IMG/VR virus record: IMGVR_UViG_3300045922_000130
Location: 1-34,642 of that record
DNA: 34,642 nt
Origin: a virus
Direction: 5' to 3' (one strand)
The notes under the pieces were generated by a model, which did no database searches, was not told where the DNA came from, and saw only the letters and a program-made list of their open reading frames with translations. Positions within the stretch are counted from its first letter, which is position 1. Every line of letters begins with the position of its first letter. Shown here piece after piece: positions 1,076 to 34,642 of the stretch. Made by a program: the position numbers and the translations under genes.

Positions 1076-1315
1076 CTATTCTATTGACTTAAATCCTGTA
1101 ATATCTCCTGTATAACTTAAGTCTATACCTCCAAAGGGATTAACCTCAGTTACTCCAATAGGTTGAGCCTTCTCAATGACGCAAGTACCTGGGGTGTACC
1201 CACTAGCTTTTAAGTTTGCACAAAGTTTATTTTTTGTCACCATAACAAGCCCTAAAGCTTTATGATGAACATAGTAATCGGAGTCGCTTTGCAAGTGGCT
1301 GGCATGTAGGGTCAT
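1076..1315 (-). CDS. Doubtful 79-aa hypothetical protein below the TnpB remnant
   Basis: A leftward frame that begins inside the hairpin at 1309-1329 and overlaps the stop of the TnpB-like frame by four bases. The C-terminal part (PIGVTEVNPFGGIDLSYTGD) has ordinary protein-like composition and the frame lies in AT-rich phage-like DNA, while its first ten codons lie in the transposon-like DNA. It could be the 3' part of a phage gene cut by the insertion, given a new start. I recognise no family, and there is no convincing ribosome site at the first ATG. An internal ATG (the MVTKNKL segment) is an alternative start. Confidence 0.35.
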   Translation of the reverse strand: MTLHASHLQSDSDYYVHHKALGLVMVTKNKLCANLKASGYTPGTCVIEKAQPIGVTEVNPFGGIDLSYTGDITGFKSIE

Positions 1316-1329
1316 CGTCCTAATGACCC
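1309..1329. repeat. Hairpin over the tnpB stop codon
   Basis: GGGTCAT (1309-1315) and ATGACCC (1323-1329) form a perfect 7-bp stem with a 7-nt loop. Its place at the 3' end of a tnpB frame fits a transposon right-end hairpin or the 3' part of an omega-RNA scaffold. No run of T follows in either direction, so it is not a rho-independent terminator. Confidence 0.55.
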
Positions 1330-1590
1330 CTCATCATGCTCAGCCTGCTTGCCTTGCGGCGACGCATCCGCCAAAGGCTTGACGTGGACACACATATATA
1401 ATGTGCTGCCCTCCGTCTCGCCCTTGGCTTGTTCATCGTTGCAGATGGACTTGACCCTCTGCGGACGCACTCCTTGCGCCCTCTGCATCGCAAACGCTTT
1501 CACGTTTTGCGCTGCGTTTATATCTCGATCATGGGTGGTTCCGCAAGCGTCGCACACCCATTCACGAACACTCTGTGTTAAAATCGCCAT
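1312..1590 (-). CDS. TnpB C-terminal remnant with half of a zinc ribbon (92 aa)
   Basis: The N-terminal third carries REWVCDACGTTHDRDINAAQ, the last part of the OrfB/TnpB zinc ribbon (second CxxC) joined to the final RuvC acid motif (RDxNAA). Full TnpB is about 350-450 aa; here everything before this motif is missing, including the first CxxC and the earlier RuvC acids, so it cannot be a nuclease alone. Two points argue that it is still expressed: GAAGGA lies 6 nt before the ATG at 1590, and a TTGACA-17-TAACAT promoter lies at 1623-1651. The C-terminal half is polar and not recognisable. It is either a domesticated fragment or the decayed core of an internally deleted element. Confidence 0.6.
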   Translation of the reverse strand: MAILTQSVREWVCDACGTTHDRDINAAQNVKAFAMQRAQGVRPQRVKSICNDEQAKGETEGSTLYMCVHVKPLADASPQGKQAEHDEGSLGR

Positions 1591-3413: not shown

Positions 3414-4181
3414 ATGGTTGGTCTATATAAATTCACTTTAGCGAAGCCTGGTTGGAGAGCTTATCAGTTCACCAAAACATTTTCCCGTAACCTTACATCA
3501 TCGTTATTTGGATTACATCAACAAGCAAAAGAAGTTTTGAAAGATGGGGTGTATACCTACATAAGTACATCCGTGCCTGCTGGGCGCACATATGAGGTGG
3601 TGAGTAGATTTGTAGGACGCACCACTCGTAAGATGTCAGCTTCGCATAAAGCTAGATACCCTTATCAACAAGAGAGTTCTGTAAGGTCAATGACCAATAA
3701 CTACGTATCTAAGGGACAAGTAAAAACTCGTAAAGTCACACAGTATGAAAGAAACGATGTCTTCTATAATCATACAGCCTCGGCACCAGGTCAACCCCCG
3801 GCTATTATGAGTGGCGATCTGGTGAAAAGTATTTACACTAAAGGTAACAACTCGGAAAGTTTTAGTATTGGGTCAACCTCGTTTTACGGTTCAATTTTTG
3901 AGGGTCACCCTTCACAGCATAACTTAACTGGTGGTGGGGTAGCTGTTGGCGGTCAGTTTGGTGGTTTAAGTGCTGGCAGATACGTATCAGCAATGATGAT
4001 TCACAATTTTGGGGGTGGTGGGGGCAACACTAGTTTGTTGAAAAAACATATTAGTAAAACAAAAGCTTTATATGGCACACGTCCCTTTATTGCCCCCGTC
4101 TTAAAATCTAAAAGAGCCTTTTTAAGAGATTTATATACAACTGCAATTGGTAAGTTTATTGGTAGGTATGGATTTAGATGA
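3414..4181 (+). CDS. Tail completion / neck protein (HK97 gp10-like)
   Basis: The recognisable signature is ASAPGQPPAIMSGDLVKSI near residues 121-139, the proline-glycine motif and following helix of HK97 gp10-type neck proteins, followed by a SIGSTSFYGSIFEGH strand region and a C-terminal TRPFIAPVL motif also typical of the family. At 255 aa it is longer than usual (about 110-180 aa), with an extra basic N-terminal region and a glycine-rich loop (HNFGGGGGN) near residue 197. Its role would be to finish the tail end that joins the head. The stop overlaps the next ATG (ATGA), which shows tight coupling. Confidence 0.7.
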   Translation: MVGLYKFTLAKPGWRAYQFTKTFSRNLTSSLFGLHQQAKEVLKDGVYTYISTSVPAGRTYEVVSRFVGRTTRKMSASHKARYPYQQESSVRSMTNNYVSKGQVKTRKVTQYERNDVFYNHTASAPGQPPAIMSGDLVKSIYTKGNNSESFSIGSTSFYGSIFEGHPSQHNLTGGGVAVGGQFGGLSAGRYVSAMMIHNFGGGGGNTSLLKKHISKTKALYGTRPFIAPVLKSKRAFLRDLYTTAIGKFIGRYGFR

Positions 4182-5278
4182 TATTAACTAGCTTTGTAAA
4201 TTATTTGAAAAATGACGTTCCAAGACACACTAATGCTTTTACAGATCAACTAAGTATTTCTAGTATTAGTGCTACTAATAATGTGGTTACTGTTGTAACC
4301 AACTCGGCACATAAGTTGATTACAGGTCATTATGTTACAATGACTGGGGCGAAAAAATTACGTGCTGTCGCATCGCTAACTCGTGTGGGTAATTTAGTCA
4401 CACTAACGACAGTTGGTCAACATAATTATACTCAAGGGTATAACAAGTGTCAATATATTACAGTTAAAGGAGCTACACCTAGTGCTTACAACGGTACTTT
4501 TTTGGTTAAAGAAGTATTGAGTGGAACTAGAATAACTTACGAAATACCTACAACTGACCCTATGCCTATAACTCCAGCTACTGGAACAATAACAATAGAT
4601 GAGGAGCGTAAAAGCATTAACGGTAGTTATCAAGTTACTGTAACGAATGGGACTACATTTGCATTTAATTCACCTAATGCGGCAAGTGATGTTATATCAG
4701 GTGAACCTGTTGTGCATGTCAGACATAGGATAACTGGTTATTTAAAAGACTTGGATACTTTTTTGGAGTATCTAAGAACTTTTGATAATGGAAACCCTTT
4801 TTATTCTTATGAAAAACCTTGGTTATTAGTTATACCCGAGGGTACTAGAACAAATAAAAATAAAAATAGTCGTATTGATACATCCGATGTAGTAATGACC
4901 GGGGAAACTATCCGTATTGGGCAAATCCACGGTGCGAGTATTATGACTTTATACAATACAAAGCTAGAACATGCGTTTAGTGTCAGTGTGCATGACGTAG
5001 CTGTTGCCGATATTTCGAAAATATCAAGAAGTGTGTTGGGGTATAAACCCCCAGCAAGTGAGATGGGAGAATCAATATCAGGCTTCAGTATCAACTCTCA
5101 TGGCCCAGCGGTTGTTGGTTCAAACAGGTACGTACATGCTATGAGTATTGACTATGTATCACATATTGTATTTGCCGATACGTCTAGAGCATTTAAACAA
5201 GATTACGCTATAAATGAGTTTGATTTTGACTTAACAAAAGGTGACCCAACTATTACGGCAGCAGGTTATATACCATAA
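4178..5278 (+). CDS. Tail terminator (Mu gp37-like) with nested beta-sandwich insert
   Basis: The N-terminal 27 residues and the C-terminal part (about 180-366, with LEYLRTFDNGNPFYSYEKPW and SVSVHDVAVAD) look like the tail terminator/gp37-type protein expected between the neck gene and the sheath. Between them is an insert of about 150 aa made of beta-sandwich repeats. One complete copy (residues 63-139, VASLTRVGN to TPATGTITI) seems to sit inside another copy whose halves are residues 28-59 and 146-178. The same domain is inserted in the baseplate J protein at 30183-31496. Terminator proteins normally have about 140-190 aa, so the insert explains the length of 366. It could add a decoration to the tail neck. 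The function call is by position and partial motif. Confidence 0.6.
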   Translation: MILTSFVNYLKNDVPRHTNAFTDQLSISSISATNNVVTVVTNSAHKLITGHYVTMTGAKKLRAVASLTRVGNLVTLTTVGQHNYTQGYNKCQYITVKGATPSAYNGTFLVKEVLSGTRITYEIPTTDPMPITPATGTITIDEERKSINGSYQVTVTNGTTFAFNSPNAASDVISGEPVVHVRHRITGYLKDLDTFLEYLRTFDNGNPFYSYEKPWLLVIPEGTRTNKNKNSRIDTSDVVMTGETIRIGQIHGASIMTLYNTKLEHAFSVSVHDVAVADISKISRSVLGYKPPASEMGESISGFSINSHGPAVVGSNRYVHAMSIDYVSHIVFADTSRAFKQDYAINEFDFDLTKGDPTITAAGYIP

Positions 5279-5344: not shown

Positions 5345-6895
5345 ATGACAACAGTATCTTTCCCTAAAACAACTGTTAATATCCAGTCCAATAGCCCTTC
5401 TGTGTCTATTTATCCACACAAAGTGTTATTTATTGGCCAAAAAACTTCCGCAGGAACAGCTACTGCTGGAAACTTAATAGAGGATATTCAAGACGACAAT
5501 AGCTGGGACACTTTATTTGGCAAGCGTTCTATGTTGGCTGGTATGCTCCGTGCTGCCCGGGCAATAAACAAACAAACACGTTTTGACGCTATAGCCTTGA
5601 CTGATGCCTCTGGTGGAGGGTCTGCCGCTGCCACTTCTAGTGTTGTATTTAGTGGAACTGCGACTGCTGCTGGTCAACTTATTTTTGATGTAGGCTCCGA
5701 GACTAACCATCGTTACACAGTGGATGTTGCTGTAGGGGACACTGCTGCTGGTATCGCAACCAAGTTAGAGACACTAGCTGACGCTGATGATTATGCCCCA
5801 TTTACCGCTGCGGTTAACTCTGCCACGGTTACGTTTACAGTTAGTCATGTAGGAACTGTAGGCAACACGTTTGGCATTAAATACAGTGGTTCTATTCCCG
5901 GCATAACTATTACTCTTAACGGTTTTGCGTCGGGCGCAACACCCCCAACGCTAACTAATTTATTTAACGTTATCGGGGAAGAACAATATCAAACTATTGT
6001 ATGGCCTAGTGATTATGGTTTAGCTACAGTTAAAAACTTTTTAGATGCGCGTTTTAACGTAACCGATAAAATTCAAAGCGGTGTGGCGATTTCTAGTAGA
6101 GTTTCCTCATATGCTGACCATCTGACGGAGCTAAATACACATAATAGTCGCTCATTAACAGTGTTATGTTTTAACTTAGTTAATACCAGCACACATAAAG
6201 GTTTAGACCAAGTGGAACTTCCTTATGTGCATAGTGCAAAACACGCTGCAATACGCTCTTTGCGTCTAACTGAAGGTACAAACATTACAGCTTACAATGC
6301 AAGTAATAATGCTGCTCTCGATAATGAGGGTGGTCCACGCCAAGCTACCAAGCCTTATGCGAACACTCCTATTCCGTTGAACCCACTACCTCCTGTAGGT
6401 AAAGGATTTACCTCGGTTCAGATTGCTGGATTAAACGCTGCTGGTGGAAGTGTTATTGGCGCAAATAGACCCCGCACGGCTGTATTAATGGGTGAAATGG
6501 TTACGACCTATAAGACTGATGCCGCTGGTAATGTAGATAAAACTTTTAAGTTTTTAAACTCTATCGATTCATCCACGATTGCACGTGAGTATATTTTTAA
6601 TAATATTAAAAATGACTTGGCGCAAGCTAGATTAACTACAGGTGATTTAATACCTAACGTATCTATGCACAACGCTGTAAGTATCAAAGGATTATTAGTT
6701 AAATACTACGAAGATCTAAGCACTGATCAATGGTGCATTACTCAAGCTAGCGATCGTGCGATCCAATTCTTTAAAGATAATCTTGAAGTCACTGTAGATG
6801 CTGATAACGGTATCGTAAGAGCTGTTATGGTTGTACCTTTGGTTACACAACTTCGTGAGTTTATCGCCACAATGAAGGTTGACTTTAGTCTATAG
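5345..6895 (+). CDS. Tail sheath protein (Mu gpL-like)
   Basis: At 516 aa this has the size and plan of Mu-type contractile sheath proteins. The N-terminus (FPKTTVNIQSNSPS, then HKVLFIGQK) is the extended arm and first strand. A beta-rich insertion domain lies at about residues 95-200 (with FSGTATAAGQL). A conserved central region (QVELPYVHSAKHAAIRSLRL; later PLNPLPPVGKGFT) follows, and a C-terminal helical part with KTFKFLNSIDSSTIAREYIF makes the inter-subunit contacts. It polymerises around the tube and contracts on infection. It is directly followed by the tube gene and has its own late-type promoter and ribosome site (AAAGG). Alanine-glycine-rich, GC-richer codons in the insertion domain are the only oddity. 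Confidence 0.9.
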   Translation: MTTVSFPKTTVNIQSNSPSVSIYPHKVLFIGQKTSAGTATAGNLIEDIQDDNSWDTLFGKRSMLAGMLRAARAINKQTRFDAIALTDASGGGSAAATSSVVFSGTATAAGQLIFDVGSETNHRYTVDVAVGDTAAGIATKLETLADADDYAPFTAAVNSATVTFTVSHVGTVGNTFGIKYSGSIPGITITLNGFASGATPPTLTNLFNVIGEEQYQTIVWPSDYGLATVKNFLDARFNVTDKIQSGVAISSRVSSYADHLTELNTHNSRSLTVLCFNLVNTSTHKGLDQVELPYVHSAKHAAIRSLRLTEGTNITAYNASNNAALDNEGGPRQATKPYANTPIPLNPLPPVGKGFTSVQIAGLNAAGGSVIGANRPRTAVLMGEMVTTYKTDAAGNVDKTFKFLNSIDSSTIAREYIFNNIKNDLAQARLTTGDLIPNVSMHNAVSIKGLLVKYYEDLSTDQWCITQASDRAIQFFKDNLEVTVDADNGIVRAVMVVPLVTQLREFIATMKVDFSL

Positions 6896-14932: not shown

Positions 14933-17900
14933 ATGCCTGACGAATTAACTAGGATAGAGCCTAAAGATTTAGATACTATTAACGTCGTTGACAATATGGT
15001 ATTAGTAGGGCAACGTACTGATACAGATGCCATCGGCAAGTTTACAAATCAGGCCTATAAAAACCATTTAGGCATCCCTACAATAAACTCATCGTTATCT
15101 ACCTTATCTAATAATATTGATAGTATAGAAGAGTCTATAGTAGCCTTAGAAACTGTAACTTCAAGTATTGTAAATGTAAAACAATATGGGGCTGTAGGCG
15201 ACGGTGTTACTGATGATACAGAAGCTATACAAGATGCATTGGATGCTAATGCAGGAAGGGTTATTTTATTTCCAGTTGGCACCTACCTTATAACTGATAC
15301 CATTTATGTTCCACCAGCTACAATTATTAGGGGGGAAGGACCAGGGGATCCTTTCAATATTGGTGGAACTTACCCAAAAACTACAATTCAACTAAGTGTG
15401 ACTTCCGAGGGGATAAAAAGAATATGGACAGACGTTGGTTTGCCCAACACACCAGCAGGGACCTTGGTTGATGACCCTATTAGTGTTGGGGTTGTTCTCA
15501 CTGGTGGCGGTATAGGTGTTGAGGATATTAGGTTTAGAAGTAACACTGATGTGACCGATAGTGTTAACACTTGGGATGTCATCTTAATGGCTGCAGGTGC
15601 CTTCAGGTTACACATGAAAAATGTGGAAACTCAAGGTAGTGCAAGATATTGTGGCTTCCTATTGGATGCCACATGGTCTAATGCGAATACAGCTTTACAG
15701 AACTTACACACGTCTACCTATGGCAGGACTGTACCAAGCTCGGGCTCCAGCAATGAAATACACTTTCAAGATTGTTACTTCTTTGGAGGTGAATGGGGAT
15801 TTATTTGTCAAGGTACTAAGAGAACAGATACTAGTGCTAACATTTGGTCAACTGGTGGTGTTTCTGACTTAACAGCTATCGGTTGCAGGGTCGGCAACCA
15901 GCCAATTCGTCTAGGTACACAAGGTAATGGTCAACCTATATATTCATTAAATAGTGGTGGTTACAAAAGAGACCTCCACAACAGCTTCCAAAACAGATAT
16001 TGGTTTGGGTGCAGCTTTAGGGCAACATCTGGGTGTAGTGTTTACTTGGACAGAGGTAGGTTTGAGCAATTCATTGGAGTGTACGGGGAGCAACGTGGGG
16101 ACAGAGTACCATCAACTTTAGTGACTAAAACTATAGATGACCTAGGTTTGGTTAATGAAGCCTACACTGGCAACTGGGTAGGTACTCCTGCATTAGTACC
16201 AAGAGAAGTCAAAATCTACCTAACTGATACTTCAAGAATAGACCCTATTACCAACGGCATAAAACCCAGAACCTTATGGACCACGGCAACTGGTAGCTTT
16301 ATATTACAAGCTGTGGGGTACGACGACAGCGTTGGGCGGGTGTTTGTCACTGTAAATGAGTCAGATGTGACTGGAACAATAACGGCTGGACAAACTGTAA
16401 CACAGGCGGCTGGGCAAACCATTGGTACTTATGGTTTTTATTGCACAGACAGAGCAGAGACAACCTACACTCAAGGGCAGTCTGCCTTCAGAGGGCCAGA
16501 ACGAAACAGGATATCTTTTATTGGGGCTAATGGGGCTTTGATAGGTGGGAACTTTAGAACTGTTGGCCTTGTAAGTACTAAGGCGAACTTAGGTTTGGGA
16601 GCAAACGATAGTGTTAGTATAAATTGTGAGAGCGGGTCTCAAATTAACTTTAGGATTAACCAGTTCGGCACAAGTAGCCTGCCACAATCTAGGTTGCGGT
16701 ACTTAGGCACAAGCTTAGAGTCATACGACCTAGCAGATTTGGGTTCGACAACTAGACGCTGGGGAACTTTTTTTGGTACAAATTTAGACTTAACTAGTCC
16801 ATTGCCGATTACACAAGGCGGAACATCTTCAACTACGCCTGCAGCAGCTAGGGCAAGCTTGGGGGTTCGTTTCGACTCGACAAGGGAAATTATTAGGCAT
16901 GCTACTCTAGATATCGACCCAAACGGTGCTGGCTATATAAAACGAAATAATCAAGCTCAAATTAGAGAAAAAGGAATTACCGACAGTGGTTTTGCATCGT
17001 TAACTCGTGCTACAAGTGTAATGGCTACTAATGCTAGTGGTGTTTTATATACCGCTTCTTCAGGACAACCTACGTTGAATTACCCCAGAACTACCCTACC
17101 TGGCGGGCTTGGCATTTGGCGACAAGCTTCCAACTTAGTTTTGTGGAGCCAAGATACCAGCAATGCTTGGTGGATAAAAACAGGATTAGGCACACCTACA
17201 GTAAATCTATCTAATGCCCCAGATACTACCAGTACAGGTAATAGGTTAACTTGCGATACCTCTACAGGGTTACACGCACTTGCTTCATCATCTATGACTA
17301 GTTTAACCACTACTGATCATTATTCATTAGGGTTTTATATCCGTAGAAATAATCATAATAGATTTCGTTGTAATATTAAAAACAGCGCCACAACTGTTAT
17401 AGCTACGTTTGATATTAACTTATCGACAGGTATCCCTGTCATTAGTGGTACGAACGCTAGCTCTGTATTGGTAACAAACGCTAATGCTTCTCATGGGTAT
17501 CATAATATTCAAGTTTATACCCCAGTAACAATTGCGGCTACTGGAGCCACTATTGAGTTACTAATGTTAGATTCAAATGGTAATGAAAGTTGGACTTCTG
17601 TTGGCACTGAAGCAGTAGATGTTTGGGGCTTCCAATTTGAAAGGTGGCGACCAACTCCTTATGTAGGCGCAACCACCGGGAGTGCAGTCACAAGAAACGC
17701 TGATATTTATACAATACCTTTGTCTGAACAATGGTACAGCTCACCAGCAAGTATTTCTTGGTATATAGAAACAGTAATTGATTTTACAGAAGGATCAACT
17801 GCAGCTGAGTATAGACGTTATTTACCTGGTTTTAGGTTATCTACTACAGATTATATAATACCCTATATATCTGGGACAGGACTTTGGCTCGAAGCAAGAA

Positions 17901-18178
17901 ATGCTAGCGACACCGCTACAGCAACTCAATTTAGTGGGTTAACAATCCCTTCTGGAGCCTTATTAAAAATTGCATTAAGTTACACGAATGGAGTTACGAC
18001 TTGTGCCTTAAATGGATCTACCGCAACTATATCAAGAACTGTGACCCCTTCATCATTTACCACTTTAACTTTTGGCCAAAATACTGGGGACGGCCGAAAT
18101 TTAAATAGTAGGTTAGGTAGATTGTTGTTTTTCCCTTTATCATTAACAGCAACACAATTACAGGATATGACTAGATAA
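14933..18178 (+). CDS. Tailspike with beta-helix and lectin-like C-terminus
   Basis: The 1081-aa protein has three parts. Residues 1-48 are a short adaptor (LDTINVVDNMVLVGQR...GKF) also seen at the start of the products at 19166 and 27577, so it probably binds the baseplate. From about residue 83 (VKQYGAVGDGVTDDTEAIQ) to 650 runs a pectate-lyase-3 type right-handed beta-helix, the usual fold of phage polysaccharide depolymerases; the catalytic acids cannot be placed by eye. The last 430 residues, from LGVRFDSTREI, hold a carbohydrate-binding-like domain (NLVLWSQDTSNAWWIKTGLG) and a concanavalin/LamG-like domain (AEYRRYLPGF). This end is shared with the spike at 20998. First gene behind the late motif at 14891; its TAA overlaps the next ATG. 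Confidence 0.82.
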   Translation: MPDELTRIEPKDLDTINVVDNMVLVGQRTDTDAIGKFTNQAYKNHLGIPTINSSLSTLSNNIDSIEESIVALETVTSSIVNVKQYGAVGDGVTDDTEAIQDALDANAGRVILFPVGTYLITDTIYVPPATIIRGEGPGDPFNIGGTYPKTTIQLSVTSEGIKRIWTDVGLPNTPAGTLVDDPISVGVVLTGGGIGVEDIRFRSNTDVTDSVNTWDVILMAAGAFRLHMKNVETQGSARYCGFLLDATWSNANTALQNLHTSTYGRTVPSSGSSNEIHFQDCYFFGGEWGFICQGTKRTDTSANIWSTGGVSDLTAIGCRVGNQPIRLGTQGNGQPIYSLNSGGYKRDLHNSFQNRYWFGCSFRATSGCSVYLDRGRFEQFIGVYGEQRGDRVPSTLVTKTIDDLGLVNEAYTGNWVGTPALVPREVKIYLTDTSRIDPITNGIKPRTLWTTATGSFILQAVGYDDSVGRVFVTVNESDVTGTITAGQTVTQAAGQTIGTYGFYCTDRAETTYTQGQSAFRGPERNRISFIGANGALIGGNFRTVGLVSTKANLGLGANDSVSINCESGSQINFRINQFGTSSLPQSRLRYLGTSLESYDLADLGSTTRRWGTFFGTNLDLTSPLPITQGGTSSTTPAAARASLGVRFDSTREIIRHATLDIDPNGAGYIKRNNQAQIREKGITDSGFASLTRATSVMATNASGVLYTASSGQPTLNYPRTTLPGGLGIWRQASNLVLWSQDTSNAWWIKTGLGTPTVNLSNAPDTTSTGNRLTCDTSTGLHALASSSMTSLTTTDHYSLGFYIRRNNHNRFRCNIKNSATTVIATFDINLSTGIPVISGTNASSVLVTNANASHGYHNIQVYTPVTIAATGATIELLMLDSNGNESWTSVGTEAVDVWGFQFERWRPTPYVGATTGSAVTRNADIYTIPLSEQWYSSPASISWYIETVIDFTEGSTAAEYRRYLPGFRLSTTDYIIPYISGTGLWLEARNASDTATATQFSGLTIPSGALLKIALSYTNGVTTCALNGSTATISRTVTPSSFTTLTFGQNTGDGRNLNSRLGRLLFFPLSLTATQLQDMTR

Positions 18179-18450
18179 TGAATACCTTTACAGTAGATAT
18201 TATTGGCAGACGACAATTTGATGATGGTACTTTTAGCAATGAATTATATGTCAATGCCTTGGGAGATTTACCAGATGACGTTATACAATATAAAGTACCT
18301 AGCCCAGCTACCCCAATAAGGGTCTATGCAGGTGTTCCCCTTGAAAACACACATTTTTTGGTAATACCAGATTATGACACTGCAATGAGTTTAGCTACTA
18401 AATATAATATAACAATTCCTGGTTATGACGATAACGAAGAGGGTGTATAG
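18178..18450 (+). CDS. Small spike-associated protein, cassette 1 copy
   Basis: A 90-aa protein coupled to the spike gene by a TAATG overlap. It resembles the 82-aa product at 25686, which follows another spike in the same way: both carry GDLPxDVxxY, PPATP or SPATP and an aliphatic C-terminal stretch ending before an acidic tail. The family is unknown to me. The constant place after a spike suggests a chaperone, cap or structural partner of the spike. Confidence 0.75.
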   Translation: MNTFTVDIIGRRQFDDGTFSNELYVNALGDLPDDVIQYKVPSPATPIRVYAGVPLENTHFLVIPDYDTAMSLATKYNITIPGYDDNEEGV

Positions 18451-19165: not shown

Positions 19166-20998
19166 ATGATGGCAGAGTCTTTTATAAGAATACATGAGTT
19201 AGATGATATTAACTTATCTAACAATACTTTTTTAGTTGGCTCTGAAAATAATGCAGCAGGTAGATTTACTGTCGAATCTTTGCGCAACTTTATTAGTACA
19301 ATAACTGGGTCTATTACGTTAAATCAAGTAACATCAAATGAAATTACATTTGGTAAAGGGGCTGACTTAATAGTTACGGCCAACCAAATTACAGTAACGC
19401 ATAGTCGTCATCTAGTTGATACTTTTAACTTGGCTACAAACGCTGATTTGCACAGTATTTTTGGAACTTTAGACACTAATAGTGTTTTGTTATTAAGTCC
19501 TTTAAACGCTAGTAGAAGTATAACTATAAAGCATAGTATAGGAAATATTTATACCCAATCAGGCACTGATATACTATTAAGTAATGATAAAAGTTATGCT
19601 CTTTTATATAATGTTGGATCTTCTCAAAATCCAATATGGCATGTAATAGCAACAAATGTAGCACAAGTAGCAATTGAAAGTGGTGAAGATTTTGTAGAGC
19701 CGATCGAACCCACTCTATCTTTAGACTTTAGTAAAAGAATATATCGACAATTAAGTGCTATAGATGAAAGTATTGTATCTAGTTTCATTAATGATATTTT
19801 AACTATAGATAGAAATAGTTTAGGAGCTTACCAACTATCAGGGGGCAAATTACAATTCGCACCAGTTGATAAAGTTGGTTATTGCTATTTCCCAAAAGAT
19901 ACAAATTCTGGAATACCTATTTATTCTGAAACAACTAACTTATTGTTGCATAGTGAAGATTTTGAAAACGCTTCATGGATTAAGACTGGTATACAGCAAG
20001 TAACAAATAATTTTGATATAGCTCCAGACGGAACAAATACACTAAACTTTATCTTGCCGAGCACGACAACATCGCAACATAGTATTCGTAGGAACATTAC
20101 TACTGTTGTTGGACAAGTTTATACTACAAGTATATATGCGAAAACATCTACTAGTAACTACCAACTAAGAATTCGTCACGGTTCTGGAGCTGGAGGTGAC
20201 TTTATGAGTGATGTCAACTTTAACTTATCAAACGGAAATAGGACACGTGGGGATGTTAATGGTAGATCATTTGAAATACCTTATTTAGGTTTTTATAGAT
20301 TTACTTTACCTTTTGTTGCTACTAGTACGACAACTAGAGTAGAATTTGCTATACATGGAGATGCTACCACTGCCGCTTGGTTGCCTAATGGAACAAGTGG
20401 TATTCTGTTGTGGGGAGCACAAACCAACGATGGGCGTATGACTGGATATACCAAATCCACCGGGACTGCTGGCGTATCTAATTTAACGGATATTCAAATA
20501 CCTTTAACAGAATCATGGTATCAAGATAGTTCTACGAAATGGACGTTATATTTAGAATATTATTTGCCAGAATTAACTGAAACATTATTTACATCTGCCA
20601 ATTATCGTCGACATCTATTCGACATAGGAAGCGACAGTGCTACTAGACTTTTAGTTTATTCATCAATTACTAGTGGAACCCCTCGAATATGTTTTGTGCA
20701 TACTGGAACAGGTGTAACAACACAAACCATAGCTAATACGTCTGTCCCTATATCAGAACTAAATAAAGTTTGTAAACTAGCGTTATCTTGGGATGGGGCG
20801 AATCTTTTACTTGGGTATAACGGACAGGTTTCTACTGTAGCTATAAATGAACCTTTAATATCTAACACGTATAATAGAATTAAGATTGGTCAACAGACAG
20901 GGTCAACCTCACGAGGGATGAACGGTAAAGCGATTAAGTTAAGTCATTATCCAAAAGCTTTTAATGCAGCGGAATTAGTAGGAGTTACAACTTTATAA
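19166..20998 (+). CDS. Tail fibre/adaptor protein with lectin-like C-terminus, no beta-helix
   Basis: The 610-aa product begins with the same adaptor as two spikes (IRIHELDDINLSNNTFLVGS, ...GRFTVESLRNF) and ends with two modules also found in them: a TNLLLHSEDFENASWIKTGI carbohydrate-binding-like segment (about 254-420) and a LamG-like domain (about 440-610). The central stretch is a short beta region; the pectate-lyase motif GAxGDGVTDDT is absent. Its TAA overlaps the ATG of the 20998 spike, which in turn has a beta-helix but no adaptor. The two may form one complex, this one serving as anchor. Start could be either of two adjacent ATG codons. Confidence 0.7.
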   Translation: MMAESFIRIHELDDINLSNNTFLVGSENNAAGRFTVESLRNFISTITGSITLNQVTSNEITFGKGADLIVTANQITVTHSRHLVDTFNLATNADLHSIFGTLDTNSVLLLSPLNASRSITIKHSIGNIYTQSGTDILLSNDKSYALLYNVGSSQNPIWHVIATNVAQVAIESGEDFVEPIEPTLSLDFSKRIYRQLSAIDESIVSSFINDILTIDRNSLGAYQLSGGKLQFAPVDKVGYCYFPKDTNSGIPIYSETTNLLLHSEDFENASWIKTGIQQVTNNFDIAPDGTNTLNFILPSTTTSQHSIRRNITTVVGQVYTTSIYAKTSTSNYQLRIRHGSGAGGDFMSDVNFNLSNGNRTRGDVNGRSFEIPYLGFYRFTLPFVATSTTTRVEFAIHGDATTAAWLPNGTSGILLWGAQTNDGRMTGYTKSTGTAGVSNLTDIQIPLTESWYQDSSTKWTLYLEYYLPELTETLFTSANYRRHLFDIGSDSATRLLVYSSITSGTPRICFVHTGTGVTTQTIANTSVPISELNKVCKLALSWDGANLLLGYNGQVSTVAINEPLISNTYNRIKIGQQTGSTSRGMNGKAIKLSHYPKAFNAAELVGVTTL

Positions 20999-21025
20999 TG
21001 TCAAAAGATTTTACAAAAAATATAA
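20993..21025 (+). repeat. Start repeat S1 (33 bp, identical to 27464-27496)
   Basis: The 33 bases from TTATAATGTCAAAAG onward are identical to 27464-27496. Here they hold the true start of the spike gene; at the second site they form a relic start. The GC-rich spike DNA begins directly after. Confidence 0.9.
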
Positions 21026-24000
21026 AAGATTACGTTGTTAGTGTAAAAGATTTTGGTGCAAAGGGTGACGGCGTTACGGATGACACCGTGGCCATACAAT
21101 CAGCTTTAGATAGTTCACAAGGTACGATAGTTACTTTCCCCAAGGGTGTCTACCGATGCACTTCCACACTATACGTGCCAAGTGGCACCACACTAGAAGG
21201 CATGGGCGTTGGTGGATGGAGAGCTAACCCGTTTAGTAGTCAGGCAGATGTAACCCTGTATGACTTAACTACAGGCAGTAACTTGTTATTTACAGGTGAT
21301 GGGGCGAAAGTTCACTACTTAGACTTTGTTACCAAGAACGATGAAGCTGGATTTAGCCGAAGCAACATAAACAGGTTACATAACAACGCAAACGATGAGA
21401 AGTTTGAGCTGTACGATTATACAAATGAAGATGCCAGCGGAACCACCAAGGCAACCCTAAAGCCATTCAGCGTATGTGTAATGTTGGGGGACGGGATTAA
21501 ACAGCACAGGACTATATTAAGAAACCTACGTGTTGTGACTAGCTGTCCTTCTGGGTCCGAGGTATACGGAACAGCTGGGTATGCAGTGCAGAATGAAATA
21601 CTGCCTTGGGCAAGGTGGGATATAGGTGTTTGGTCTAGGAGTGGATGGGATAACGCCATTTATGACAGCCAAGTGGTAGGCTACTACGGCATTAATGGGC
21701 TTTTAATAACCACCATGGCTAACACGACCCCTTACGAAGGTACCAGTCCAAACTTGGGGTTTGCTGAGAACTTTAGTATGCAAAACACAAGGATTCAATC
21801 GGGGCTTGCTATAAGGTCAGGCGATGTAATCCCAGTTCTTAGCAAAACGTCAAATAGCATTACTGTCGAGTGGAGTGCCTCACACAGATTTAACACTAGC
21901 GGAAGCTTAACCACTGATGATGGAACCTTAGTCTACACTGGGCTAACATACACCGCAGGATCCCCAAACACCCTAACCTTTACAGGCATAGCTAATACCT
22001 CCAACGTGTCGTCAACGGCTGGTGGCACATTAATACGCAGGACCCACAACGGAGGCCTTGCAAACACAAGCTTTATAAACTGTGAAATTAGTGACTTTGG
22101 CCATTCAAGCAGGACAGACAGGGCAAGCGACAGTTACCCCACAGGTTACAAGAGTAAGTACCGCCCAGCACTTGAGATGAGCGGGCACCCCTTGAGGGGG
22201 GTTAGCTTTATAGACTGCTTGTATGACTCTACAAGCTACGCCCACATCCACCTTGGCTTAGCAAGGGATATAGAGTTTAACAACTGTTACGGGGAGCCTA
22301 AGGCTTACAAGCTTACCCCAACAAGCAATTCATTGAGTGGTGGTGGGCTATTTATTTGTGGTCCCCGCAGCACAAAGGATTATGGCAGAATTTACAAAGG
22401 CGTTATTACTAATTATGGCATTACTTTTGTTGGTAATGTAAACCGGGAACCTTTAGTACCTGTCATTACAGGGACGAGAGTGTCTGGGTTTACCGATGTT
22501 TTTAACCCAGCTCAATACTTTGACAACAGATGGTTTCATCAGCTAGGAACTAGCGCCGCCGGGCAAAAAGATATAAATATGCTCCCCCTAAAAGGCGGCA
22601 GGCTTGTTATGAAAGACGCAAGCGGTAATGAACGTTGGGCACTTGATGATACCACCGACACCATTACTGACTCCACGCAAAGCACAACTTATGCTTTTGG
22701 TGCACAGCTAATCGTCCCTAATGACAGAGAGTTTGAAATAAAAAACGCAACAGGGTTAAAGTTTCTTGAAAAACCTAGCAACGATAACAATGTTATTCAT
22801 CGCAACTTGGCTTTTAATGCTTCTGACAGCACCCTTACTATATCATCTGGAGCTATTACTGTAACAAATAACTTCACTAGAATAGACACTGAAGGCTCTG
22901 CTGCTTTAGATGAGCTTACAACCATCAACAAGGCCAACAGTGGGGGGACGTTTCCGCTTTGGTTGCGTACAGTTTCATCTAGTCGAGATGTGCTGATTAA
23001 ACATCAGCAAGCTGGCAATATCCGCACCTTTAACGGTCAAGATATACTACTAGACCACACAAATAAAGTGGCTTTCTTGTTTTGGAATGGGGTTTTCTGG
23101 CACGCCATATCGCTAGATAGTGCTACGACACAACTAATAAATGCTCACGGCGATACTGACTGGATGCACATGCTGCTTTATGGGCAGTCGTTAAGTTATG
23201 GTGCAAGCTCTACCCCTGTTATATCCACAACACAGCCCTACAATAATGTGAAGATGAATGGCACGGTAATCACTGATAATTTTATTGGGACGAGAACCAG
23301 CTTTGATGCCTTGGTAGAAACCAGCCGAGAGACCCCTACAAGTGGCATGCTCAACAAACTAAAGCAGAGACTTGGGAACACTGCGTTTACTAATACCAGA
23401 TTTATAGGTACTGCCGCTGGTGATGGTGGGCAAACCTTAGAGCAATTGGGGAAGGGAAGCTTTAACTTTAACAGAATGATTGGCGAGATACAGTCGGCTA
23501 AAAACATAGCCACTGGGCTAGGGGACACCTATCAAGTTGGGGCTATGGGCTTTGTTCATGGTGAATCCGCTTACAGAGATGCGCTTAGCTCTGCTGAGTA
23601 CCAACGCCAATTCCTTAATTTCAAGCGTGACTTTGCTGATGCTGTAAGCAATGTTACCAGACAAAACAATGTGCCTGTTATGATAACTGCGCAGACGGCT
23701 TCTAGTCGATATTATGCTGGGTCAACAAAGTTACCTACTATTGCTCTGATACAAGCAGCTATGGCTAAGGACTACAAGGATATAACAATAGCCTGCCCCA
23801 TCTATTGCTTGGAGCATGCGGAGGACAACCTGCACCTTTCCGCTGAAGGTAGTCGGATGCTTGGCTATTATCTGGGTTTGGCGGCAAAAAGAACTGTGTT
23901 TGACAAGGTGGATTGGCGACCTTTAGAAATGATTGCGCTAAACGTCCAGCCTACTTTTGTAGATGTGAAGCACAACGTCCCTTACGGAAAGATACAATTT

Positions 24001-25689
24001 AAAACAGGTATTGTTGCGGATACAACGAACAAAGGCTTTGATATTTATGATGAGACCAACACACTAAGGGATATAATAACTGCTGTACAAATTATAAACT
24101 TTGACACAGTAAGGCTCACGTTGTCGTCCCCCTTGGCAATAGGCGACAGTGTATGCTATGCGTGGGGCAGAAGCTCTCAAAACGGTTCCAGCTTTGGAGG
24201 TAACGCTACAGGACCCAGAGGCAACCTCTGCGACCAGCAAGGCGATATAGAAAACTACACAGGTGTTGACAACAATACTCGTTATTTGGATAATTACGCT
24301 TTAGTAGGAAAAATGACCATCGGCGAGTCTTCATTTGGGGGGACTGACGCGGATACGGCTGCTAAAGCAAGAGCAAACTTAGGCATCCGCCCCGAGGCTA
24401 CAAGGGAGCTGATGCGCCGCCCCACCCTAACGATTGATGGTGTTAATGGCGTGTTTTTTAAGCGAAACAGGGCGGTATCTATCAGCCAAGGCGACCTGTT
24501 AGCCTCCAGCTTTGCCACCTTTACCCGAGCCACGGCTTCGCTTTACACTGACGTAAGCGGGACAATACGATCCGCTGCTAGTGGCGTGCCTACCTACAAC
24601 TACCCACGCAACAGCCAAAGTGGAGGCTTGGGCATATTTAGGGCTGCTACCAACCTAATCGAGTGGAGCCAAGACTTTGGCAACGCATGGTGGACAAAAA
24701 CTAACGCAACAGTACCCTCAACCACTGGGGCTGGCGCACCCGATGGTACGGCTACCGTCAACACTATTCAAGCCAGTGCGGGGGCTGGCATACACGGCGT
24801 GCAATCTACATCAATGGGGAGCCTTACCACCACGGATAACTATGGCTACAGCGTGTACCTTGCAGCAGGCACGGCCAGTAAGGCAAGGATTAAGGTAGTC
24901 AACTCATCTAGCATGGTAATAGGCCAAGTGGATATTGACTTAACCACCTTTGTTGCCTCGGGCGTGGACGCTCTCAATTGTGCTATCTTCCCCCCTGTGG
25001 GCAATAGCAACTTAGGCAGGGTGGAGCTTTACCCTAGTGCTGCTATTGGCACAACAAGCGCAACCGTTGAGATACTGATACTAGACGGCAGCGGGAACGA
25101 AAGCTACACCGCAGCAGGCACAGAGACAATCCTTGCTTGGGGCGCACAGTTTGAGCGTTACAGGCCGACCCCATACTTGCTAAGTGCTGGTAGCAGTGGC
25201 GCACGCAACGCAGACACTTTGACTTTGGCTACAACAGAGGAGTGGTACGGCACGCCAAGGGGCATCACCTTGGCGATGGATACCGTGCTTGAACACTTTA
25301 ACGGCCCAACTACTGCCGAGTACAGGCGTTACCTGTTTACCACGCGCCTTGGTATAACTGATTTTATAAAGGCATATGTGGTTGGCAATCAAATAGTTAT
25401 TGGAGCAAAAAACAACAACGACACCGTAACGCTTACAACGGTTGCAGGCGTAACACTTACCCCCAACACGCAAATACGCTTAGCTGTCTCTACTAATGGT
25501 GCAAACGTGAATGTAGGAGTAAACGGCACAACCTTTAGCTTTGCCCGCACCTTACGCCCCAACGTTTTTACTCAACTCTCAGTGGGGGCAAACGAAAGTG
25601 ACCTAAGGCAACTCAACGCCCGCCTAGGGAAGCTAGACTTTTGGCCATTGGCCATGACGGCCAACCAGCTTGGAGACCTAACACGATGA
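20998..25689 (+). CDS. Giant tailspike: beta-helix, SGNH esterase, lectin-like end
   Basis: At 1563 aa this is the longest gene. KDFGAKGDGVTDDTVAIQ (residues 17-34) opens a pectate-lyase-3 beta-helix without an N-terminal adaptor. After about residue 640 there is a mid domain, then an SGNH/sialate-O-acetylesterase-like domain at about 715-970: GQS with Ser731, an AGDGGQT loop, HGES (854-857) and DNLH (Asp943, His946) match the SGNH blocks. From LGIRPEATREL (about 1130) to the end it is related to the end of the 14933 spike. So it may both cleave and deacetylate a surface glycan. It is GC-richer than its neighbours: I count 34 G or C in 24961-25020 but 17 in 26821-26880. The first 9 codons are AT-rich and come from repeat S1. 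Overlaps the genes on both sides by a few bases. Confidence 0.83.
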   Translation: MSKDFTKNIKDYVVSVKDFGAKGDGVTDDTVAIQSALDSSQGTIVTFPKGVYRCTSTLYVPSGTTLEGMGVGGWRANPFSSQADVTLYDLTTGSNLLFTGDGAKVHYLDFVTKNDEAGFSRSNINRLHNNANDEKFELYDYTNEDASGTTKATLKPFSVCVMLGDGIKQHRTILRNLRVVTSCPSGSEVYGTAGYAVQNEILPWARWDIGVWSRSGWDNAIYDSQVVGYYGINGLLITTMANTTPYEGTSPNLGFAENFSMQNTRIQSGLAIRSGDVIPVLSKTSNSITVEWSASHRFNTSGSLTTDDGTLVYTGLTYTAGSPNTLTFTGIANTSNVSSTAGGTLIRRTHNGGLANTSFINCEISDFGHSSRTDRASDSYPTGYKSKYRPALEMSGHPLRGVSFIDCLYDSTSYAHIHLGLARDIEFNNCYGEPKAYKLTPTSNSLSGGGLFICGPRSTKDYGRIYKGVITNYGITFVGNVNREPLVPVITGTRVSGFTDVFNPAQYFDNRWFHQLGTSAAGQKDINMLPLKGGRLVMKDASGNERWALDDTTDTITDSTQSTTYAFGAQLIVPNDREFEIKNATGLKFLEKPSNDNNVIHRNLAFNASDSTLTISSGAITVTNNFTRIDTEGSAALDELTTINKANSGGTFPLWLRTVSSSRDVLIKHQQAGNIRTFNGQDILLDHTNKVAFLFWNGVFWHAISLDSATTQLINAHGDTDWMHMLLYGQSLSYGASSTPVISTTQPYNNVKMNGTVITDNFIGTRTSFDALVETSRETPTSGMLNKLKQRLGNTAFTNTRFIGTAAGDGGQTLEQLGKGSFNFNRMIGEIQSAKNIATGLGDTYQVGAMGFVHGESAYRDALSSAEYQRQFLNFKRDFADAVSNVTRQNNVPVMITAQTASSRYYAGSTKLPTIALIQAAMAKDYKDITIACPIYCLEHAEDNLHLSAEGSRMLGYYLGLAAKRTVFDKVDWRPLEMIALNVQPTFVDVKHNVPYGKIQFKTGIVADTTNKGFDIYDETNTLRDIITAVQIINFDTVRLTLSSPLAIGDSVCYAWGRSSQNGSSFGGNATGPRGNLCDQQGDIENYTGVDNNTRYLDNYALVGKMTIGESSFGGTDADTAAKARANLGIRPEATRELMRRPTLTIDGVNGVFFKRNRAVSISQGDLLASSFATFTRATASLYTDVSGTIRSAASGVPTYNYPRNSQSGGLGIFRAATNLIEWSQDFGNAWWTKTNATVPSTTGAGAPDGTATVNTIQASAGAGIHGVQSTSMGSLTTTDNYGYSVYLAAGTASKARIKVVNSSSMVIGQVDIDLTTFVASGVDALNCAIFPPVGNSNLGRVELYPSAAIGTTSATVEILILDGSGNESYTAAGTETILAWGAQFERYRPTPYLLSAGSSGARNADTLTLATTEEWYGTPRGITLAMDTVLEHFNGPTTAEYRRYLFTTRLGITDFIKAYVVGNQIVIGAKNNNDTVTLTTVAGVTLTPNTQIRLAVSTNGANVNVGVNGTTFSFARTLRPNVFTQLSVGANESDLRQLNARLGKLDFWPLAMTANQLGDLTR

Positions 25690-25934
25690 GCTATCACCCC
25701 AACAACTACTTTTTGGTAGGAAACCTTGAAGGGGAGCAAGGGTATTACGTCAACGCCCCTGTAACCCCCTTAACAGGCGACTTGCCCGCCGATGTGTTGG
25801 CTTACAGTATTGCCCCGCCTGCCACGCCCAAGGTAAGCCTGCTAGGGGTGGATGCGGCCGATGTTGTCTACCTAAAGTTTGCTGACGAAGCCGAAGCCCG
25901 CACCGTGCTTGGCTTGCCACAAGACGAGGAGTAA
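25686..25934 (+). CDS. Small spike-associated protein, cassette 2 copy
   Basis: An 82-aa protein started by the ATG that overlaps the stop of the spike gene (ATGA). An upstream in-frame start inside the spike gene is less likely. It shares with the 18178 product the GDLPADVLAY motif, PPATP and an aliphatic end with acidic tail, and takes the same place after a spike, so the two are homologous parts of duplicated cassettes. Codon use is GC-rich, like the spike before it. Function unknown. Confidence 0.75.
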   Translation: MSYHPNNYFLVGNLEGEQGYYVNAPVTPLTGDLPADVLAYSIAPPATPKVSLLGVDAADVVYLKFADEAEARTVLGLPQDEE

Positions 25935-30182: not shown

Positions 30183-31496
30183 ATGGCACTAAATATACCG
30201 TCTACTGTACAATTAATTTTTGATAGGTTAAGGTCTGATGCACAACAGGAATTAACTAATGTTAACGTGTGGACACGTAATAACTTTTTCAGTGCTTTAC
30301 TTGCCGCGTGTGCTGGACGGTTTAGGGCCTTATATCAAGTATTCGTAACAGGTATCAATGAAGCTGCAATACCTATAACGGCAAGAGATGAATACTTAGA
30401 CCAGTGGGCTGAATTACGAGGTATCACAAGGCTTCCAGCTAGCTCATCTAAAGGTTATGTAAACTTTCCTTGTATTGATAATGTTACTATTACAGAAGAT
30501 ACAGTTTTACGAGATGATACTGGGTTAGAATATATAGTTCAATCAGACTCTACTGATACCACACAAGTATTAAGCTTAGCTAGTTTAACAAGGGTTGGTA
30601 ATACTGCAACAGCAACTACATCCGAGCCTCATGGTTTTGCTACTGGACAAACTGTCACTATTAGTGGAGCTTCACAATCAGCTTATAATAAGAATTTTGT
30701 AATTACAGCAACAAGTAATTTTACTTTTACATTTACTGTATCAGGAAACCCAACAACCCCTGCAACTGGAACGATTTTAGCCACTAGTCGTTTTATTACC
30801 GTTGAGGTAGAATCTGCCGAAAATGGTGTTATTTATAATAAAGAGAATGGAGCAACCATAAGTATATCAACCCCACTACCATTTTTGAATGATACTGGAT
30901 ATGTTGTTTTTGACGGTCTTAATGGTGGAGCAGACGAAGAAACAGATAGCAGACTACAATTTAGAAATAAATTAGCTTGGCAAAATCCTATAGCTTTATT
31001 TAGTAAAACTTTTTTAGAACAGAAGGCATTAGAACTTTCTTTTGTTGAGCGTGTTTTTGTGCAAGAAATAACACCTGGTATTGGCGATACCACTATATAT
31101 TTCACTTCCAATACAACGGCTAACGCTCAACCTACGGCTACCGAAATATCCGCTTTTCAAAAGCATATGTCAAAGTTTAAGCCAGCGCATATGTCAAGTA
31201 ATGACTATGTATTAAATGCTGCTAGTGCTGTACCAGTTAATATAACAATATCATCTCTAGTGCCTAATAACGGTACATTGAAAACTGCTATAAATGAAAC
31301 TTTGAGGGAATGGTTTAATTTAGAGGTGGAACCTGGTCAAGATATTTTGGTTTCTCAACTATATGGAGTTATTTATAGAACTACTGATGTTGAACGTGGG
31401 GAAAATCCAAGAACATTCATAATATCTTTGCCCTCTGGCTCTGTTTCAATAGCTTTAAATCAGAAGGCCGTTCTTGGGAGTGTAACATACACCTAA
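30183..31496 (+). CDS. Baseplate J-like wedge protein (Mu gp47-like) with inserted domain
   Basis: The 437-aa protein shows the baseplate J plan: N-terminal helices (about 1-60, with WTRNNFFSALLAACAGRFRA), the EYLDQWAELRGITRLPAS motif near residues 70-87, a barrel, GGADEETDSRLQFRNKLAW near 245-265, and a C-terminal PVNITISSLVPNNGT and VEPGQDILVSQLY region. It is the core wedge protein that triggers sheath contraction. Residues about 130-200 (LASLTRVGN to TPATGTI) are an inserted beta-sandwich, which breaks the barrel and closely matches the insert in the 4178 protein. In Mu this gene follows gp46 directly. The stop overlaps the gp48 start. Confidence 0.88.
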   Translation: MALNIPSTVQLIFDRLRSDAQQELTNVNVWTRNNFFSALLAACAGRFRALYQVFVTGINEAAIPITARDEYLDQWAELRGITRLPASSSKGYVNFPCIDNVTITEDTVLRDDTGLEYIVQSDSTDTTQVLSLASLTRVGNTATATTSEPHGFATGQTVTISGASQSAYNKNFVITATSNFTFTFTVSGNPTTPATGTILATSRFITVEVESAENGVIYNKENGATISISTPLPFLNDTGYVVFDGLNGGADEETDSRLQFRNKLAWQNPIALFSKTFLEQKALELSFVERVFVQEITPGIGDTTIYFTSNTTANAQPTATEISAFQKHMSKFKPAHMSSNDYVLNAASAVPVNITISSLVPNNGTLKTAINETLREWFNLEVEPGQDILVSQLYGVIYRTTDVERGENPRTFIISLPSGSVSIALNQKAVLGSVTYT

Positions 31497-33396: not shown

Positions 33397-33876
33397 ATGT
33401 ATATATCTATAGATAAATCGTTAGAGTTAATAAATCAACAAGAGTTTAATCTTTTAAAAACTTTTGAAATAAATGATACAGTTACTTGGGACGACTTTTT
33501 GTATTGTTTTAATTTTATTGACTTGTTAAAGTTAAAGGATAATAAAGTTTTAATTACTGATTTATTTAAATTAGCTGATTTGGTTTATACTTTAAAATGT
33601 TTTTGTGGTGGATTTAAAATAAAGGCTAGATCTGGATTTATTGAAAATGGAGATGAACTAGGGTTTCAGTTTATACCTAGAGGTATTTTAACCTATAAAT
33701 TAAAAAATAGTGTAGAGGCATTCGCAAAAAGGTATAATTGTGAATATGAAGTCTGTGATAGTTATATTTATTTAGGTATTAAAAGGGATAAAGTTGCCGA
33801 TACCGAAGAAAAAGGAGATATCTGTGAGTCAAGAAAAGTTGAAATCAAAGCGAAAAAAGAACCAAGACGAAGATAA
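33397..33876 (+). CDS. Hypothetical protein, 159 aa, upstream of the sigma factor
   Basis: First gene behind the promoter at 33351-33379. The protein has an N-terminal helical half rich in Leu and Asp (TWDDFLYCFNFIDLLKLKDN), a cysteine-containing middle (LKCFCGGFKI) and a basic end (KKEPRRR). No family is evident. Its last 53 bases overlap the sigma-factor gene in another frame, which explains the biased C-terminus and suggests coupled expression. Placed as it is, it could be a partner or regulator of the sigma factor, but that is only context. Confidence 0.7.
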   Translation: MYISIDKSLELINQQEFNLLKTFEINDTVTWDDFLYCFNFIDLLKLKDNKVLITDLFKLADLVYTLKCFCGGFKIKARSGFIENGDELGFQFIPRGILTYKLKNSVEAFAKRYNCEYEVCDSYIYLGIKRDKVADTEEKGDICESRKVEIKAKKEPRRR

Positions 33877-34642
33877 CGAATGCTTGGGAGAAAGTTACGA
33901 TAAGTCAGATAAAAAAGTTAATGAAGATAAATTATCTGCAAGTTGTTTTAACGACTTTATAAAAAAACTTCGTTCACCTAGATATAAACCGTTTACTAAA
34001 GAAGAAGAATACTTTTATATATCAGGGTTTAAGAACGGACGAGCTGAATATAAGAAAAAGATCCTAGAAAAAAACTTACCTTTAGTAGTTAAAATCTCTA
34101 TGAAAGCCCGTGATAGAGGTGTTCCTGTTGAAGATTTAATTAACGAGGGATGTATTGGATTAAATACGGCCCTTGAGAAATTTGACTTATCAAAAGGTTT
34201 TCGTTTTTCTACTTACGCTGTCAGTTGGATTTATAAGTATGTAAATATGGCTGTTATGAATGGTCGTAATTCATTAAAAATACCTATGACAACTCAAGGT
34301 AATATAACAAAAGTTTTAAATGTATTTAATAATGATGAAGATATGACTTCAATGAATTATAATGTACAAGGCTTGTCTAAAAAAACTGGTTTATCTGAAA
34401 GGGTTGTTGACACAATTTTGGCAAGTCTTAATTTATATAGTGTTGAAAACCTTGAGGATTTGTTAAGTAAAGACTGTACCGAAGGTTTAAATATAACTAC
34501 TTTAAATAATATAGACCCATCAATATCAAATAAACCTTATGAAATAAATGGTATCGATAGGAAATTATATGTTACTTACCAAGAATTAAAAACATTATCC
34601 GACGATGACTTTTCAATAATTGAAGATTTCTATGGATTAAAT
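33824..34642 (+). CDS. Phage RNA polymerase sigma factor, cut by the window end
   Basis: GTG 33824 has an excellent ribosome site (AAGGAG, 7 nt upstream) and opens a frame of 273 codons without a stop to the window end. Residues 1-45 are charged. About 57-88 fit region 1.2 (FTKEEEYFYISGFKNGRAEY, NLPLVV). EDLINEGCIGLNTALEKFDL (103-122) and FRFSTYAVSWIYKYV (126-140) are region 2, for core binding and -10 melting and recognition. LSKKTGLSERVVDTIL near 185-200 suits region 3, and region 4 would lie at or past the edge. Phage sigma factors of this group direct middle or late transcription. It is the natural candidate to read the GTAAACTTTAAATAGA motif found before five tail operons; this is inference. 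Confidence 0.88.
   Translation, partial: MSQEKLKSKRKKNQDEDNECLGESYDKSDKKVNEDKLSASCFNDFIKKLRSPRYKPFTKEEEYFYISGFKNGRAEYKKKILEKNLPLVVKISMKARDRGVPVEDLINEGCIGLNTALEKFDLSKGFRFSTYAVSWIYKYVNMAVMNGRNSLKIPMTTQGNITKVLNVFNNDEDMTSMNYNVQGLSKKTGLSERVVDTILASLNLYSVENLEDLLSKDCTEGLNITTLNNIDPSISNKPYEINGIDRKLYVTYQELKTLSDDDFSIIEDFYGLN

Follow-up and report, generated by a model that had tools for sequence, protein, structure and literature searches.

We describe a tail terminator-like protein in which one β-barrel is predicted to be nested inside a second, homologous β-barrel. The protein, P0001, has 366 amino acids and is encoded at 4178..5278 on the plus strand of a 34.6 kb virus record, the whole of which is referred to here as the window. 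Taken together, the evidence makes it very probable that P0001 is the terminator of a contractile-tailed phage and that an FCCH-like barrel within it hosts a homologous barrel; six such rods would likely serve as arms, and the protein would have grown by the landing of a module.

The genes around P0001 follow a contractile-tail order, running from a head-tail adaptor and a head closure gene through a gene with a weak tail completion/Neck1 match to the 4178-5278 gene and the tail sheath gene (5345..6895 (+); phrog_165 tail sheath, E 7e-49). This position, with neck genes upstream and the sheath downstream, is that expected of a tail terminator. After the sheath come a tape measure gene, two baseplate hub genes, a GP46-like gene, pectate-lyase-fold proteins and a baseplate J-like gene, and four tRNA genes lie near one end of the window. 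A pectate-lyase-like segment (PF12708) recurs in three large proteins (14933-18178, 20998-25689 and 27577-30114, all (+)), one of which also gives a weak match to a SASA esterase; they are probably several tail spikes of a single phage. Small ORFs at 18178-18450 and 25641-25934 (+), downstream of two long pectate-lyase-fold genes, are 33% identical and perhaps encode a duplicated accessory or chaperone protein. On the opposite strand, residues 8-30 of a 92-residue ORF (1312-1590 (-)) correspond to the final part of the Cas12f1-like TNB domain (PF07282; 33.5 bits, which exceeds the cut-off), a domain also present in TnpB; the ORF is likely left over from an IS200/IS605-type element in the phage record. 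By eye, the open-ended ORF at the end of the window (33794-34642 (+)) resembles a sigma-70-like factor (FDLSKGFRFSTYAVSWI).

Sequence comparison confirmed that residues 25-59 and 143-181 of P0001 (4250..4354 and 4604..4720 (+)) each represent one half of a second copy of the domain at residues 62-141 (4361..4600 (+)), which is itself complete and matches phrog_9998, 19630 and 529. When the two outer pieces were spliced and aligned locally to the inner copy (BLOSUM62), the score was 68, compared with 26.6 +/- 4.8 for shuffled sequences (0 of 2,000 as high) and a maximum of 39 for 2,000 random pairs of pieces from residues 185-366, none of which reached 68. Each half taken by itself also aligned to the inner copy, with scores of 53 for half 1 (0/2000 as high) and 42 for half 2 (1/2000). 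Against a profile of 35 inner copies that contains no outer sequence, the spliced outer copy of the window scored 34.1 bits in one piece over profile positions 2-74 (best of 350 shuffles, 14.0); with a profile of eight copies from other proteins it scored 35.4 bits (best shuffle, 8.5), although half 2 alone collected just 9.3 bits with that profile.

The same correspondence was found across the family. In an alignment of 35 relatives, window included (A3), the inner and spliced-outer profiles aligned over 70 columns (P 8.3e-17), with half 1 alone reaching inner columns 1-35 only (P 3.8e-9; 23.0 bits) and half 2 alone reaching columns 39-74 only (P 2.6e-9; 12.9 bits for the window copy alone). 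The 35 spliced outer copies had a median of 31.2 bits with the inner profile, 29 of them at E <1e-3, compared with at most 3.4 bits for pieces of the terminator core. The profile-profile P value, the profile bits and the shuffle and random-piece tests together rule out a chance resemblance. The initial annotation had described this arrangement at 4259-4711, that is, residues 28-178; the peptides it quoted lie in P0001 where it placed them, and its reading of the flanking pieces as the first and second halves of the inner domain agrees with both the profile comparison and the alignment of the joined halves. Its nested layout stands, with the domain limits refined to those given above.

A direct search of viral contigs with P0001 returned no relatives, so these were gathered through the neighbouring sheath gene, a collection that is blind to the barrels (62 loci; the best 80 of 341 relatives; 6 more). 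Against cultured phages, P0001 and the terminator of one relative (L022) gave isolated barrel matches only; the window sheath led to 17 distant records and the L022 sheath to none. One of the 17, Curvibacter phage TJ1, carries an ORF of 200 residues in the corresponding position, and its locus gave no match to the terminator profile. Across the collected loci the terminator profile matched 122 ORFs, 104 of them end to end, and 85 of these were distinct. The 18 partial ORFs, mostly cut by contig ends, were left out, as were 19 duplicates; the proteins set aside include L042 (a frameshift relative to L041), L092 (match beginning at profile position 12) and L080 (a barrel-only match). Matches in the 85 distinct full-length relatives spanned 341-453 residues, too long for any of them to be missing a piece the size of a barrel, and single-barrel intermediates, when sought, numbered 0 of 85.

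With the inner profile, 68 of the 85 proteins gave the complete half-full-half pattern, 11 gave the first half and a full copy, 2 a full copy and the second half and 4 a full copy only; as this profile was partly built from the same 85 proteins, its full matches are partly there by construction, which does not apply to the half matches. A profile built outside the family gave the half-full-half pattern in 45, first half and full copy in 22, full copy and second half in 5, full copy only in 7 and no full match in 6. Parts of the barrels gave a weak profile signal in the L014/L069 and L034 proteins. Rather than a singular event, the nested layout is, judged from these sequences, an old and conserved feature of the protein family. 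The terminator genes of L014 (L014:3820-4908) and L069 have an apparent ATC start after a good ribosome site, with no in-frame ATG, GTG or TTG before residue 136. Sheath loci without a terminator match mostly have less than 1 kb of sequence upstream of the sheath; L131, L163 and L055 have more and carry other genes there, L131 (upstream of 4001) being a sheath relative without a recognisable terminator gene.

Nesting extends to a third level. In L030 the inner copy is itself divided: its left part (48.1 bits over profile positions 1-48) and its right part (18.4 bits over 51-77) lie on either side of a complete third copy (57.1 bits), a pattern that clearly points to a third copy inside the inner one; the protein of L065, from another metagenome record, is identical. 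L041 probably also carries a third nested copy. Here a complete further copy (58.8 bits) follows the apparent first strand of the inner copy, and adding that strand lifts the score of the host copy from 72.4 bits to 78.6, in favour of nesting. The third copy of L041 may instead stand in tandem, as the predicted structure is unsure in this region (pLDDT <50).

The barrel also occurs well outside the terminator family. At E <=1e-3, 36 of 50,697 phage records contain it, the proteins that carry it being hydrolases, spikes, fibres and hypothetical proteins, and a stabilization protein of an EBPR podovirus has two un-nested copies. In the window, the baseplate J-like protein P0002, which also has a Baseplate_J domain match, carries a single un-nested barrel at residues ~131-200 (30573..30782 (+)) that is matched by both the inner (E 4.8e-17) and the outer (E 8.1e-17) profile. 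In L131 and L105, ORFs located downstream of the sheath likewise carry single FCCH-like barrels, around residues 130-200 and at about the same location as in the window J protein, and insertion of the barrel into J proteins may be recurrent.

A tree of copies from 39 chosen loci, from which L036 and L069 dropped out (no rows appear under those names), grouped 36 of 37 inner copies and left outer and free copies intermixed; it is built on 91 rows and 73 columns, with few firm branches and a bootstrap that had not settled. The exception is the inner copy of the window itself, which falls among the free copies. The third copy of L041 is nearest to free copies, and that of L030 lies weakly beside the inner ones. 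The simplest reading of these sequences would be one old nesting event, with a later replacement in the window possible. That the window inner copy was in fact replaced from the circulating pool by a relative of the J-protein copy, and is not the ancestral inner copy, seems possible but somewhat unlikely: the J copy is its nearest neighbour in the tree (44% identical) and scores 129 against the inner copy compared with 92 against the spliced outer one, but the data do not reject a clade that unites all 37 inner copies (AU test, p 0.33), few branches are firm over the 73 columns and the window inner copy belongs to no starred set. Under the simplest reading of a single old event, as under replacement, the nesting proposed in the initial annotation holds, and the insert may derive from the outer copy or from another circulating copy. 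We tentatively consider, at a little short of an even chance, that the barrel is a recursive module, a circulating domain that inserts into exposed loops, among them those of other copies of itself, and lengthens the neck arms level by level.

The identification of P0001 as a terminator is also supported by its predicted fold. An AlphaFold2 model made from A3 (35-row alignment) had a mean pLDDT of 82.4 and a pTM of 0.76, with blocks across residues 1-180 at 75-97 and with residues 228-241 and the C terminus at low confidence. The Mu terminator superposed on model residues 1-360 (Z 13.2, 5.8 Å, 154 aligned), 2gjv on 1-336 (Z 13.1, 2.8 Å, 130 aligned; Foldseek E 1.4e-5) and the T5 terminator with Z 12.2, in support of the label terminator-like that the initial annotation had used. 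The core fold common to tail terminators (Mu gp37, T5 p142, lambda gpU, T4 gp15 and the pyocin R2 collar) is found in residues 1-20 and 184-336 of P0001, and its gene likewise lies upstream of the sheath gene. In the protein, this core corresponds to an N-terminal helix region (residues 1-22, 4178..4243 (+); model helix 3-16), from the start of which the terminator matches extend to about residue 336, and to residues 184-366 (4727..5275 (+)), which include the C-terminal tail and match the folds of Mu, 2gjv, T5 and lambda gpU. Mu, T5 and lambda terminator chains have ~130-176 residues, whereas P0001 has ~160 extra after the first helix, which are the two nested barrels. At the sequence level, the Pfam family PF23840 matched 3 of 35 relatives at E <=0.1 (best 0.0029), P0001 itself not being among them, and a search of solved structures gave weak E1 matches only (E >=0.56). 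In BFVD, an uncharacterised 342-residue phage protein, modelled by others, matches end to end (363 columns, TM 0.73/0.77, E 6e-27, 20% identity).

The closest solved folds of the inner copy are the barrels of the phi92 and K1F endosialidases (PF12195), which match it over 76-78 residues at 2.0-2.2 Å. The phi92 barrel (256-337) aligned 78 residues on model 59-142 (2.0 Å, Z 9.5), and the K1F barrel lay on the same range (Z 9.0); unlike the P0001 arrangement, the endosialidase barrel is contiguous and present once within the ranges that matched. PF12195 gave no sequence match to P0001 at E <=1 and matched 3 of 35 relatives at E <=0.1, and the match to phrog_9998 spans the barrel alone (profile 40-112 of 401) rather than the full length. 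Both the endosialidase likeness and the free copies in annotated tail spikes and fibres would suit a receptor- or glycan-binding neck decoration in place of structural braces. We regard this as improbable, as fold and gene position put P0001 at the end of the tail nearest the head, remote from the tip that usually binds receptors, and as copies of the barrel are also present in the podovirus 'stabilization protein' and the baseplate J protein. By analogy with known terminators, the barrels would more likely be integral arms or a collar on the terminator ring.

The outer barrel has the six-stranded fold of the E1 FCCH domain (UBA1, UBA6; PF16190). The FCCH of UBA6 (chain 212-292, 81 contiguous residues) aligned 78 residues across model 21-183 (2.2 Å, Z 10.8); as the 78 aligned residues stretch over 163 residues of the model and 81 of the template, the insert must be skipped in this match. 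On the L041 model the same template covers residues 22-257 (75 aligned, 2.0 Å), with the same split and a longer gap. E1_FCCH scored 15.1 bits against P0001 (residues 34-57), below the gathering score of 29.5, and we therefore call the outer barrel FCCH-like rather than a family member; 12 of 35 relatives matched at E <=0.1 (best 0.00048). In the model, the outer barrel is made of strands 23-33, 36-41 and 52-60 and, after the insert, 149-152, 160-164 and 173-181, and the inner barrel of strands 61-70, 73-78 and 93-97 followed by 106-113, 118-122 and 139-143. Residues 52-70 form a single unbroken strand (DSSP) that runs from the outer barrel into the inner one, as in the L041 model; the 60/61 split is our own division of this strand, and packing was judged from the secondary structure and from where each alignment starts and stops, as ranges on the model rather than coordinates. 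These models support a homologous barrel nested between strands 3 and 4 of its host, a self-nested insertion in which the halves of a discontinuous host domain match the two halves of the insert. Two sequential or half-swapped barrels, with a tandem repeat misread as nesting, are highly improbable: the reversed order of the outer halves still collects bits (median 26.6, compared with 31.2 in the right order), but the inner copy is complete, contiguous and matched by single-domain structures, and the P0001 and L041 overlays with a contiguous template reject such arrangements. Structure prediction thus recovered the one-inside-another arrangement of the initial annotation, with neither sequential domains nor an unrelated outer fold; its term β-sandwich gives way to a six-stranded β-barrel.

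The nested reading suggests how the arms might be built. The FCCH-like barrel would follow the first helix and precede the remainder of the terminator core, with the second barrel in its strand 3-4 loop and with outer strand 3 continuing as inner strand 1 (52-70); because this strand is shared and unbroken, the two barrels should form one stiff rod rather than beads on a string. According to passages of PMC11915804, terminators cap the tail as hexamers, and those of myophages (Mu) bind the last sheath ring through their C terminus. Six rods would then project from the hexameric ring as arms and might brace the junction of the neck and the last sheath ring, or make a collar. A comparable case, described in parts of PMC12886913, is the Staphylococcus phage 812 terminator gp99, which shares with P0001 an additional β domain and forms a six-armed clamp that binds the sheath; it has one extra domain, called a β-sandwich, and those parts do not mention nesting. 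In the same source, neck decoration proteins of phage 812 are thought to reinforce the neck. Growth would occur when a loose copy of the shared phage module inserts into a loop of a structural protein, including the loop of its own copy.

Domain insertion as such is common. Sections of PMC13114784 report insertions in 20% of multidomain proteins, with nesting in a minority and with inserts that tend to be small and to have close ends, and assign 65.8% of insertion events to pairs of different homology groups; from this figure we infer that domains inserted into related domains are not unknown as such. P0001 shares the layout and small inserts of the nested architectures recorded in ECOD (A1-B1-C-B2-A2, same source), but that example uses three different letters (A, B and C), whereas host and insert are of the same kind in P0001 and all three levels are of one kind in L030. 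The E1 FCCH is likewise inserted into another domain, the inactive adenylation domain (PMC12355090), and the relevant section there does not mention one FCCH nested in another. The literature that we searched on self-nested insertion, phage FCCH-type domains and terminator insertion domains does not describe this layout, nor do the pertinent parts of PMC12886913, PMC11915804, PMC11948020, PMC12355090 and PMC13114784. In that literature we found no account of a tail terminator with this domain nested in itself, of the conservation of the layout or of its third level.

Tail terminator becomes a probable name for this family of uncharacterised proteins from uncultured phages, to which sequence searches assign labels based mainly on the barrel. 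If the barrel is indeed a recursive module, two levels would be the family norm and three would have been reached in at least one lineage, with the same domain as host and insert at successive levels. An insertion of a domain into its own homologue that is conserved in a large set of phages, and repeated to a third level, offers a clean natural setting in which to test how proteins are built by insertion, through which one could ask which loops accept inserts, whether an insert must fold first and how nested rods compare mechanically with tandem repeats.
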